From assembly GCA_009873635.1 (NCBI GenBank), contig WAHY01000001.1, positions 52,532 through 99,684 on the forward strand: a DNA stretch of 47,153 nucleotides, in the 5' to 3' direction. The translations under genes were made by a program, and so were the position numbers. The DNA is from Nitrospinota bacterium (GTDB lineage Bacteria > Nitrospinota > Nitrospinia > Nitrospinales > VA-1). Shown here piece after piece: positions 5,444-9,435 of this stretch. Each line of letters begins with the position of its first letter. Within the stretch, counting starts at the first letter, position 1. The notes under the pieces are model-generated. The model worked only from the letters and a program-made list of their open reading frames with translations. It had not been told where the DNA came from and did no database searches.

Positions 5444-6955
5444 CTAGCTGTTATCATTTAAATGCTCTTTTGATTCTTGTCGGTTGTTTCTAAATTCCTG
5501 GATCAGTAAATAATAAAATGGTAGGTACTCAACCCAGGGGGTAAACCGGCTAAATGACGGAATCTCTTGATAATCAAAATAAAAGTCAAGGTAATACAGG
5601 CCTACCAGGCCTGTCAAAATAATCCATGAACGCTCTGGAAACACACATAAAAACGGCACCACCCAGCAAAGATACCAGGGATTTTGAACAGGACTCAAAA
5701 GGAAGACCAGGGCCATGAGCCAGAACAGCCCGCGGACAAATTCTACAGGTTGTTCAACAAGAGACGATCCTTTAAAAAGCAACCGGATTAACACTCCCAT
5801 TAATACAAAGCTTACAGTAACCTTACTTAAAAAAACGGGTAGGGAATTGGATAATATTACTTCGTTTGCCATTTCCCCTGACAAGCTTTTAAAGATGAAA
5901 ACCAGAACGGCAAAAATGCTATCGTTGCTTTGCCAGTAAAGGGTGAAAGCCTTGAGCCCTTCAAACATTTTTAGTCCGATTCCCGTAAAGGGCAAATAGC
6001 CTAATACAATCACACCAGCAAAAAGCATTATGTTTCCGAATGGAGCCAGCCAGGGGTTCTTACCCAGCGTCGCCATTTTTTCATGGCAGGATTTAAGGTA
6101 TAGCGGTAACAAAATTATGGGATAAAGTTTTCCCAAAAATCCAAAGGCGAGGAAAAGCGTTGCTAAAGTATGACGATGGCAAAGCAGAAAATAAATCGAA
6201 CCGGTGAGCAGGGATATCCCAATAATGTCCAGATGAGTTGAGTTAAATGTTTCCTTGATAATCAGGGGGCTCCAGAAATAAATCAGGCAATGGGATTTAT
6301 CAAGCCCTAACAGGGAAAGGATGCCAACTATGAACACCAAAGTCAGGACATCGAAAAATAAAAACCCTGCCCGCAAAGCCACAATGCTGTCCGGTTTTAC
6401 ATGGTGTATCAGGCGGAAAACAAATTGGGCCATGGGTGGGTAGATTGTTGGAACATCCGGGTGGTTCACCCTTTCAAGATATTGTAAGGACTTGGGAGAC
6501 TCCCATTTCAAAACGTCCAACTGTTCCAGCTCGCGTTCGTTGCGTTCTACATAAATTTCATAATAGTATTCGGGGTTCTGTATTCTTAACGCCTTGAAGT
6601 TGTTTACCTCAGAAGGAGCGTATTCATATGGATTGATTCCACTCGCGAAAACTTTTCCATCCCATAAATAGCGGTAGACATCATCTTCCTGAATCTGTTG
6701 AGAGGGCAGGATGATGGCACGAAACAGCAGACCAAACAAAATGACCTGCCAAAAAATTTTCTGGCTATTGGATTTTTTGAGCACAAAAAACCAGGTCAGG
6801 CAGTAAAGCGCAAACAGTGAAAAATAAACCGCGAGATAGATAAGAATAGGTCGTTCTGAATATCCTTCACCCCAGTTGAATTGGTAAGAAAGCTTGGTCA
6901 GAAATGCGTATAACAGCAGGCTGGTTGCCCCGGTCAATAAGATGGGAGAACGCAC
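5444..6955 (-). CDS. GT87/PIG-M-like polytopic membrane glycosyltransferase
   Basis: The 503-residue protein has about ten or more hydrophobic spans. Its first periplasmic loop carries EDDVYRYLWDGK (about 88-100) followed by GINPYEYAP, the acidic-motif loop typical of polyprenyl-phosphate-dependent mannosyltransferases (GT87/DUF2029 and GT-C types). A second loop with NHPDVPTIYPPMAQF resembles the same family. It probably transfers a hexose from a lipid-linked donor to an envelope glycan or lipid; substrate unknown. It starts at GTG 6955, overlapping by one base the TAG stop of the TPR remnant upstream, so translation was probably coupled to that frame. Confidence 0.8.
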   Translation of the reverse strand: MRSPILLTGATSLLLYAFLTKLSYQFNWGEGYSERPILIYLAVYFSLFALYCLTWFFVLKKSNSQKIFWQVILFGLLFRAIILPSQQIQEDDVYRYLWDGKVFASGINPYEYAPSEVNNFKALRIQNPEYYYEIYVERNERELEQLDVLKWESPKSLQYLERVNHPDVPTIYPPMAQFVFRLIHHVKPDSIVALRAGFLFFDVLTLVFIVGILSLLGLDKSHCLIYFWSPLIIKETFNSTHLDIIGISLLTGSIYFLLCHRHTLATLFLAFGFLGKLYPIILLPLYLKSCHEKMATLGKNPWLAPFGNIMLFAGVIVLGYLPFTGIGLKMFEGLKAFTLYWQSNDSIFAVLVFIFKSLSGEMANEVILSNSLPVFLSKVTVSFVLMGVLIRLLFKGSSLVEQPVEFVRGLFWLMALVFLLSPVQNPWYLCWVVPFLCVFPERSWIILTGLVGLYYLDFYFDYQEIPSFSRFTPWVEYLPFYYLLIQEFRNNRQESKEHLNDNS

Positions 6956-7443
6956 TAGGGATCCCGGGCAAAAGAACTTTGCCCTTCCAGAGTTTTTAGT
7001 TTTTTAATTTCCTGATCTGACAAAACTTTATATATATCCAGGATGCTTCTGTGGAAATAAGGGTCATCATTTTTCATTGCCAGAGCAACCCAGTAAAGGG
7101 AAAGGGCTTCCTGATACATTTTTTCCTTTTTGTAAAGTTTCCCCAACTTGATATAAACTTCCAACCGGTTTGGTTCCAGAACTGAAACTATTTCAAAATA
7201 ATTTAACGCTTCAAGATTTTTTCCTAAGCGTTCATACTCAGCTCCCAATGTTTCCAAATAGGCCGGGTTCTCATCTTCCAGATCAATGGATTGTTTCAGG
7301 TGCTCTATACCTGTAGTAAATTTTTCTCTTTTAAAGTGTAGTTGCCCAAGTCGATAATGAGTCAGGGCATGCTTGTCATCAATGATTAATACTTTAAGAT
7401 AGTTTTGTTCTGCTTCGGCAAGCTTTCCTTTAGACAGAAGAGC
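6955..7443 (-). pseudogene. TPR protein remnant lacking its N-terminus
   Basis: A continuous frame runs from a TAA at 7446-7444 down to the TAG at 6955 and encodes about 162 residues. TPR-like helices include KLAEAEQNYLKVLIIDD, HYRLGQLHFKREK, EALNYFEIVSVLEPN and EALSLYWVALA. The frame opens immediately after the stop codon in mid-repeat. The first usable start (TTG at 7257) would discard about 60 residues that are clearly TPR-like. The 5' end therefore appears deleted and joined to the beginning of a STAS-domain gene (7430-7516). It could still be translated from the internal TTG as a 100-residue protein. Confidence 0.72.
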
Positions 7444-7516
7444 TTATATTAATATCCCCGTTTACCGATACAATAACCTTTTCACCGACTTTATCCAGTT
7501 TTAAGTCTATGTTCAT
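7430..7516 (-). pseudogene. Truncated STAS-domain anti-sigma factor antagonist
   Basis: The ATG at 7516 lies two bases after the stop of the RsbW-like gene, so translation is probably coupled. It encodes 28 residues beginning MNIDLKLDKVGEKVIVSV and continuing NGDINISSSV before TAA. This strongly resembles the first beta strands of SpoIIAA/RsbV-type antagonists, which are normally about 100-110 residues and carry a phosphorylated Ser near residue 55-60. The rest of the domain is missing, and TPR-coding sequence begins in another frame at about 7443. The remaining peptide would lack the phospho-acceptor. Confidence 0.68.
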
Positions 7517-7518
7517 GT

Positions 7519-7962
7519 TTAGCTCTTACCCTTGTCGTGAGTCGATGTCAGTTCGGTTTTTAATTTTTTTATCATGGTCAGCAAAGTGCCTTTGGCCCGG
7601 TTGGTGCAGTAGCTGACCTCATCCATAATTTCATTTATGAAATGAGTGCCTAGTCCACCCGGTTTCATATCATCCAGTTCACGCGGTTTGATTTGGTTGA
7701 TATTGCATTGTTTGCCGTAGTCGCGGATCTGGACCTTAAAATCATCTCTCTCAATAGTGAAGGTGGCCTCAATAGGTTCATCGCAGGAACCTTCGTAACT
7801 GTGTTTGATAACATTTGCACAAGCCTCATCCACGCAAAGGATTAAACGCCGGGCAGTTTCATCAGGAACCTCATGATTTTGAAAAAGTTCCTCCAAAACC
7901 TTACGAATTAATCCCAAGTATTTTGGATTGCTTGGAATAGAGAGTTTAATGGGTTGGGACAT
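7519..7962 (-). CDS. RsbW/SpoIIAB-like anti-sigma kinase (HATPase)
   Basis: The 147-residue protein is a single GHKL ATPase domain. The N-box is DEACANVIKHS (about 48-58), the G1 box is in IRDYGKQ and the G2 box is GGLGTHFI. Proteins of this size act in partner-switching: they bind a sigma factor or other target and phosphorylate a STAS antagonist. It sits between the PP2C phosphatase gene and the start of a STAS gene, which supports that role. No sigma factor gene is adjacent, so the target is unknown. GAGAGGGAC just before the ATG is a good ribosome binding site. Confidence 0.88.
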   Translation of the reverse strand: MSQPIKLSIPSNPKYLGLIRKVLEELFQNHEVPDETARRLILCVDEACANVIKHSYEGSCDEPIEATFTIERDDFKVQIRDYGKQCNINQIKPRELDDMKPGGLGTHFINEIMDEVSYCTNRAKGTLLTMIKKLKTELTSTHDKGKS

Positions 7963-8130: not shown

Positions 8131-9435
8131 TTACAAAGCTTTGAACGTCAAAGAGGTGAGGTCATCATGCTGAGGCGCATCACCAATGAACTGTTTTATG
8201 GATGTTTTCAGATTTTGTAGGAATTCTTCTGGCTTAGCTGTGTTGTTGGCAAACAGCTCTTTTAATCTGTCTATTCCAAACTCCTCCTGATGCTTGTTTT
8301 TAGGTTCGGTCACGCCATCAGAAAATATCAGGATTTCATCGCCACATTTGAGAGTGTATCCTACCTGATTGTATTGCATGTTGGGAAGGATCCCTAAGGG
8401 TGTTCCGCTGGCAGATCCAATTTCCTTAATAGAACCATTGTTTTTTAGTAGAAGCGACATGTGGCCACCATTAGCAATAATTATTTTTCTAGTTTTCATA
8501 TTGAGTAGACAGAACACTGCTGTGGTGAACATGCCACGATAAGATCTTTTGCAGAGAGTGTTATTGATTTCTGTGAGAACCTTTTCTGGTTGCGGGTCGA
8601 GCTGGGAGATGTAACGAAAATCACTCATCAATCGTGCCATTTGCAGTGCTGCGGGTACACCTTTTCCAGAAACGTCCCCCAAAACAATACCGAGAAGTTC
8701 ATTTTCAAATGGAATAAAATCGTAATAATCACCGCCAACAATCTGCGCAGCATGGGTTTGAGCGGCAAAGGTGAAGTTTATGTGTTGAGGTGTGGTGGTT
8801 GGTAGAAAACTTTCCTGAACCGATTGTGCAAACTCCATGTCTTTTTCCATTCGCTGGTTTTCCATGAGCACTTGATGTATACGGGCGTTATGAATTGCCA
8901 GCGCGGCACTGTCGCATAGAAGCAGAAAAAGCTCCAGATCGCTATGGTGAAATACCTGCCCCTTTTTTTTTCCGTGAATAACCTGGCAGACGCCAATAAT
9001 TTTGCCTTTAGCTTTAAGGGGTGAGCATAAAATGGAACCGGTTTTGAAACCGGTTTTTTTATCAAAACTCGGATTAAATTTTGGATCCTTGTAGGCATCT
9101 TTGATAATAACTGTCTCACCTGTCTTAGCTACTGTGCCGGCAATACCCTCACCCATTTTTAGGCTGATCATGGACTTGATCTCTTCACCAACTTCGCTTA
9201 ATGCAATTTGAAACACCAATTCATCGGTCTCTTCCTCAATCAGTAGCAGACTACAGGCATCAGCAGACATAACTTCTTTGGTAGCACTCATAATGGTATC
9301 AAGAAGATTGGCAAGGTTTAATTCGGAATTAATAAGAGAAGTAATTTTTGAACAAATTTCTAACTGATTAATCCGTTCCTCCAGTTGGGATAAACGTAAG
9401 GTGATGTCAGGTAGTTCTTCTTTATGGTTATTCAT
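8131..9435 (-). CDS. GAF-domain PP2C-type (RsbU/SpoIIE) phosphatase
   Basis: The 434-residue protein has a short N-terminal coiled coil (about 10-30), a GAF sensor domain (about 40-190, with MGEGIAGTVAKTGE) and a C-terminal SpoIIE/PP2C phosphatase domain (about 225-434). Metal-binding motifs are visible: GGDYYDF, LGDVSGKGVPAAL, IFSDGVTEP and a terminal HDDLT. It should dephosphorylate a STAS antagonist in response to a small-molecule or redox signal sensed by GAF. It is the first gene of a minus-strand group followed by the RsbW-like kinase and the broken STAS gene. AGGA precedes the ATG. Confidence 0.9.
   Translation of the reverse strand: MNNHKEELPDITLRLSQLEERINQLEICSKITSLINSELNLANLLDTIMSATKEVMSADACSLLLIEEETDELVFQIALSEVGEEIKSMISLKMGEGIAGTVAKTGETVIIKDAYKDPKFNPSFDKKTGFKTGSILCSPLKAKGKIIGVCQVIHGKKKGQVFHHSDLELFLLLCDSAALAIHNARIHQVLMENQRMEKDMEFAQSVQESFLPTTTPQHINFTFAAQTHAAQIVGGDYYDFIPFENELLGIVLGDVSGKGVPAALQMARLMSDFRYISQLDPQPEKVLTEINNTLCKRSYRGMFTTAVFCLLNMKTRKIIIANGGHMSLLLKNNGSIKEIGSASGTPLGILPNMQYNQVGYTLKCGDEILIFSDGVTEPKNKHQEEFGIDRLKELFANNTAKPEEFLQNLKTSIKQFIGDAPQHDDLTSLTFKAL

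Follow-up and report, generated by a model that had tools for sequence, protein, structure and literature searches.

Partner switches of the RsbU-RsbW-RsbV and SpoIIE-SpoIIAB-SpoIIAA type combine a PP2C phosphatase, a HATPase_c_2 kinase and a STAS protein with a conserved serine, and SypE-SypA and SiaABC-SiaD are partner switches with a non-sigma output. A STAS protein is also part of the MlaFEDB transporter of E. coli and P. aeruginosa, where MlaB sits on the ATPase MlaF. In E. coli, MlaB binds MlaF via a helical face with T52 near its centre, the phosphomimetic exchange T52E weakens this binding, and MlaF, whose C-terminal extension contacts MlaB, needs MlaB to remain on the complex (PMC7367683). 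The structure paper on MlaFB treats the regulation of MlaB as an open question and suspects phosphorylation without naming a kinase (PMC7367683). A search of an open-access library gave no description that links Mla, MlaB or lipid transport to RsbW, RsbU or partner switching; in its one hit for lipid asymmetry with partner switching, both terms occurred in the reference list only.

The window analysed here, a stretch of 47,153 nucleotides (G000:C1:52532-99684), belongs to a marine bacterium of the nitrite-oxidiser type that shares its genus with Nitrospina sp. LS_NOB and whose draft genome comprises 2.6 Mb in 54 contigs (95% complete). It contains on the minus strand an intact GAF-PP2C phosphatase of the SpoIIE/RsbU type (8131-9435, 434 aa; Pfam SpoIIE, PF07228, 8.8e-44; GAF 1.4e-18) and an intact RsbW-like HATPase_c_2 serine kinase (7519-7962, 147 aa; Pfam PF13581, 3.2e-28, above the cut-off), which stays under the NCBIfam equivalog cut-offs for RsbW. 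Two members of an RsbU/RsbW/RsbV module are thus present, and a STAS protein with a phosphorylatable serine, intact in the relatives, is missing from the window.

The kinase is found in 11 genomes of the genus at 79-88% identity, and in all 11 an intact 111-codon STAS gene with a DSSG site lies next to it, followed by mlaE where the contig goes on. Reading four of these loci gene by gene (G002, G007, G009 and G015) gave the order kinase, STAS, mlaE, mlaF, mlaD, TPR lipoprotein and a gene for a 503-aa protein. G012 shares this order, except that its mlaE and mlaD are each broken into two frames; this split in Nitrospina sp. LS_NOB (L032:6725-9470) reflects either early decay or sequencing errors. 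As in the RsbU and SpoIIE systems, phosphatase, kinase and conserved-serine STAS protein are encoded together, but here mlaE, mlaF and mlaD follow downstream and the operon has no sigma factor gene. As in MlaFEDB, a STAS gene accompanies an MlaE-family permease, a C-terminally extended MlaF-like ATPase and an MCE protein. In contrast to MlaFEDB, the STAS gene precedes mlaE and is RsbV-like, MlaD has about 370 aa, a TPR lipoprotein belongs to the operon, and kinase and phosphatase genes lie upstream.

In the window this arrangement is interrupted. The kinase stop codon ends at 7519 and the ATG of the STAS gene lies at 7516, leaving a gap of two bases; the STAS frame (7430-7516, minus strand) reads MNIDLKLDKVGEKVIVSVNGDINISSSV followed by a stop codon that ends at 7430. 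It consists of the first 27 of 111 codons, as seen in the alignment to the relatives' genes, plus one more codon and the stop, and does not reach the region of the DSSG phosphorylation site. The stub is no chance frame, since it matches at 53-68% the N-terminus of the full-length STAS genes that occupy this position in relatives. Next to it, the 3'-terminal 157 codons of a TPR lipoprotein gene remain (6955-7428, minus strand; 297 aa in G009), which are 65-78% identical to genes of the same genus. This remnant has no signal peptide and no usual start codon at the joint, the first in-frame ATG, GTG or TTG being a TTG at 7257. The sequence-only reading had described precisely this arrangement, a STAS gene beginning two bases past the kinase and ending at 7430 after 28 codons beside a headless TPR frame, and the reading frames bear it out. 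It had also placed the beginning of the TPR frame at 7443 after a stop codon. The frame is indeed open from 7443, directly preceded by TAA, and matched by Pfam TPR models; its opening "ALLS" is STAS DNA in another reading frame, and true TPR homology starts only at about 7429.

When the DNA was aligned to relatives, STAS-derived sequence extended to about 7436-7433 and TPR-derived sequence began at about 7429. The joint thus lies within 7429-7436 (minus strand) and couples STAS codon 27 to the 157-codon TPR remnant; its position agrees with both flanks, the intact gene order and the lengths in relatives. Microhomology at the joint could amount to about 3 nt (AAA) at most; a longer candidate, AGCTCTTCT, was rejected, being absent from the relatives' TPR genes. 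The joint region is present once, as a DNA search of the genome returned the self match alone. A promoter and terminator scan gave no usable result.

The segment missing from the window is 3559-3731 bases long in G002, G007, G009, G011, G012 and G015, six of the seven relatives with sequence across the gap, and contains the 3' end of the STAS gene, mlaE, mlaF, mlaD and the 5' half of the TPR lipoprotein gene. Beyond it, the 503-aa membrane protein gene is retained intact (5444-6955, minus strand; homologues in 56 of 60 relatives), its GTG start overlapping the TPR stop codon by one base. The protein is weakly mannosyltransferase-like, its best NCBIfam match being alpha-(1->6)-mannopyranosyltransferase A (E 6.8e-5, far under the cut-off). 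The earlier idea that a deletion cut off the STAS gene at its end and the TPR gene at its start agrees with every intact same-genus relative examined, but it was too small: the two were never direct neighbours, since three genes lie between them in relatives, and these were lost too.

No MlaE match (PF02405) was found in the genome and no MlaD with a single MCE domain; the only MlaD-type matches are the three domains of one longer protein. Therefore, the segment does not simply lie on another contig. The genome holds no second copy of the truncated genes, and relatives have them intact together with the intervening sequence. Judged from these comparisons, about 3.6 kb have very probably been deleted here from an operon of kinase, STAS, mlaEFD, TPR and glycosyltransferase-like genes, which in some genomes includes the GAF-PP2C gene. 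An orthologue of the latter is absent from G002 and G012, both of which carry the kinase, STAS and Mla genes.

Losses at this site are not confined to the window. In G026, RsbW codon 32 is fused to TPR codon 269; in G022, the end of the STAS gene, from its stop codon, is joined to the 3' end of the TPR gene and no PP2C gene is present at the site; in G033, the break lies just after the STAS gene, nothing is left of mlaEFD and little of the TPR gene, the PP2C gene contains stop codons and the STAS gene a frameshift. The whole module has disappeared from the site in G004, G010, G016 and G024. These different deletions and several whole-module losses show the loss to be recurrent. No relative was found with the identical compact arrangement and conserved junction sequence; the compact loci of G022, G026 and G033 differ in their endpoints. 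A tree was built from the 503-aa proteins of 50 genomes, of which 29 have both kinase and MlaE and 17 have neither; G000, G022 and G033 have the kinase only, and G047 has MlaE only, paired with another, shorter MlaD type. The state with both genes requires nine changes on this tree, at least six of them on well-supported branches. Among the order's genomes that are at least 90% complete, 17 have both genes, eight neither, two the kinase only and none MlaE only (Fisher p 2e-5, a test that ignores relatedness). Some of the presence and absence entries come from incomplete genomes, and the G005 contig ends before the mlaE position. The transporter has thus been lost repeatedly within the Nitrospinaceae, perhaps in part along with genome reduction.

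As gene loss, the deletion scar is nothing unusual; it exposes a conserved operon that links a serine kinase and a phosphatase to an MCE/Mla transporter via a STAS protein. The order PP2C-RsbW-STAS-MlaE-MlaF recurs in eight loci from Gamma- and Alphaproteobacteria bins, where the individual proteins are 28-52% identical; this recurrence points to a functional unit. In a Rhodospirillaceae bin (L130:6435-8363), phosphatase and kinase form one apparently fused frame of 642 codons upstream of STAS-mlaE-mlaF. In an alignment of eight STAS proteins, the DSSG motif is invariant. MlaF proteins linked to a STAS gene, including those of the relatives, have a C-terminal extension, which in the Nitrospinaceae protein can be aligned with that of P. 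aeruginosa MlaF; MlaF proteins without a STAS gene end earlier and lack it. The relatives' MlaE exceeds the TIGR00056 cut-off and their MlaF remains below that of the E. coli-type MlaF equivalog. Canonical Mla loci of outgroup genomes (G018, G019, G045, G047, G052, G055, G058 and G059) were rejected as the same system; their MCE proteins are shorter, and no STAS gene lies beside mlaE where this could be read.

We slightly favour the view that the STAS protein works like MlaB in an MCE/Mla transporter controlled by kinase and phosphatase. We give an even chance to the more specific proposal that the intact operon of Nitrospinota and of the Gamma- and Alphaproteobacteria bins encodes a partner switch with the transporter as its output, in which RsbW and MlaF compete for one face of the STAS protein. 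Unphosphorylated STAS protein would bind MlaF in the manner of MlaB and allow MlaE, MlaF and MlaD to assemble; RsbW would bind the same face and phosphorylate the DSSG serine, thereby releasing MlaF, and the GAF-PP2C phosphatase would reset the STAS protein upon a signal. The logic of kinase, phosphatase and STAS protein would be that of SypE-SypA and SiaABC-SiaD, with an ABC lipid transporter as the proposed output. If this is correct, the operon supplies the kinase and phosphatase for a STAS protein of the MlaB type, and phosphorylation would switch lipid transport on and off. In the bacterium studied here, whose window has no transporter gene at all, transporter and switch subunit are lost, and kinase and phosphatase would be either recently orphaned or retained to serve a second STAS protein as well.

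Alternatively, the trio could be a classical anti-sigma switch, in which the kinase inhibits a sigma factor, the STAS protein is the antagonist and the linkage to Mla genes is incidental; with the antagonist lost, the sigma factor would here stay inhibited or rely on the second STAS protein. The family scores speak for this: the relatives' STAS protein exceeds the cut-off of the anti-sigma antagonist family TIGR00377 (76 bits) and reaches 24.5 bits with the MlaB model NF033618, whose cut-off is 90, which counts against an MlaB-like role. Its nearest solved structures are also anti-sigma antagonists, and four gammaproteobacterial loci (L131, L133, L135 and L137) have the PP2C-RsbW-STAS trio without adjacent Mla genes, which likewise counts against a transporter switch, as does the missing PP2C orthologue in G002 and G012. 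However, proteins with sigma-70 region 3 number about three per genome with or without the kinase, the operon contains no sigma factor gene, and the arrangement including mlaE and mlaF is conserved across phyla. We regard the anti-sigma switch as unlikely, and the role of antagonist assigned to this STAS gene by the sequence-only reading is doubtful, as in relatives the gene leads into a lipid-transporter operon. It is still less probable, and to our mind very improbable, that the joint is a misassembly and that the organism keeps the full operon. In favour of an error, the assembly is a draft of 54 contigs that is 95% complete. However, the joint lies inside a contig of 290 kb, and the approximately 3 nt shared there were judged too short for joining by a k-mer assembler; in addition, none of the other contigs carries MlaE or a single-MCE MlaD, and comparable losses are found at the site in related genomes.

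A closer contest concerns the present role of the kinase and phosphatase. That the pair had lost its local antagonist, with a substitute possibly elsewhere, was also proposed earlier; no local partner is indeed left, and the genome has one other intact STAS gene (C11:52079-52465; L169:7077-7466), directly after PhnC-like ATPase and PhnD-like ABC genes. Instead of being left-overs, kinase and phosphatase may act on this C11 protein, the deletion having taken one of two outputs, a tentative explanation to which we give slightly below even chances. The C11 protein carries a DSS motif, is 79-92% conserved in most genomes of the genus and could be the partner of the pair. Homologues occur in 36 of 60 relatives, mostly those with the kinase, a few weaker matches being the operon STAS itself. 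Counted over genomes of the order with at least 90% completeness, 18 have both C11 STAS and kinase, seven neither, and one each is discordant in either direction. G012 has the kinase without the C11 STAS and G021 the reverse, which counts against action on the C11 protein. The gene thus co-occurs with the kinase about as well as MlaE does, which counts against the transporter switch; co-occurrence by itself fits a kinase that depends on the transporter, on the second STAS protein or on both. Against sister genomes, omega is 0.04-0.06 for the phosphatase and 0.07-0.11 for the kinase, about the range between relatives and without relaxed selection, so the choice is between a recent deletion and a pair that is still in use. 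dN/dS was rejected as a clock for the deletion, since dS is about 1 or above in most pairs and saturated. On the branch to the bacterium, the ratio to sisters is 6.7 for the STAS stub, which has 27 codons only, and a mild 3.2 for the TPR remnant, as compared to 0.7-2.5 for twelve other genes including phosphatase and kinase. This contrast fits continued work of the pair on the C11 protein, but a recent deletion would give the same picture.

Some further observations concern the surroundings of these genes. The protein with three MCE domains is encoded in a single 737-aa frame (C14:59360-60385), is PqiB/LetB-like and is also found in G002, G020 and G038; it may be the MCE-type protein that remains after loss of mlaEFD. 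About 10 kb separate the PP2C gene from the kinase in G006, G007 and G015, where the two genes are on opposite strands, as though a segment had been inverted or moved. Finally, a contig labelled Emcibacteraceae bacterium (L128, JAJFIR010000028.1) carries the Nitrospinaceae operon with Mla genes 73-96% identical and seems to have been misbinned.
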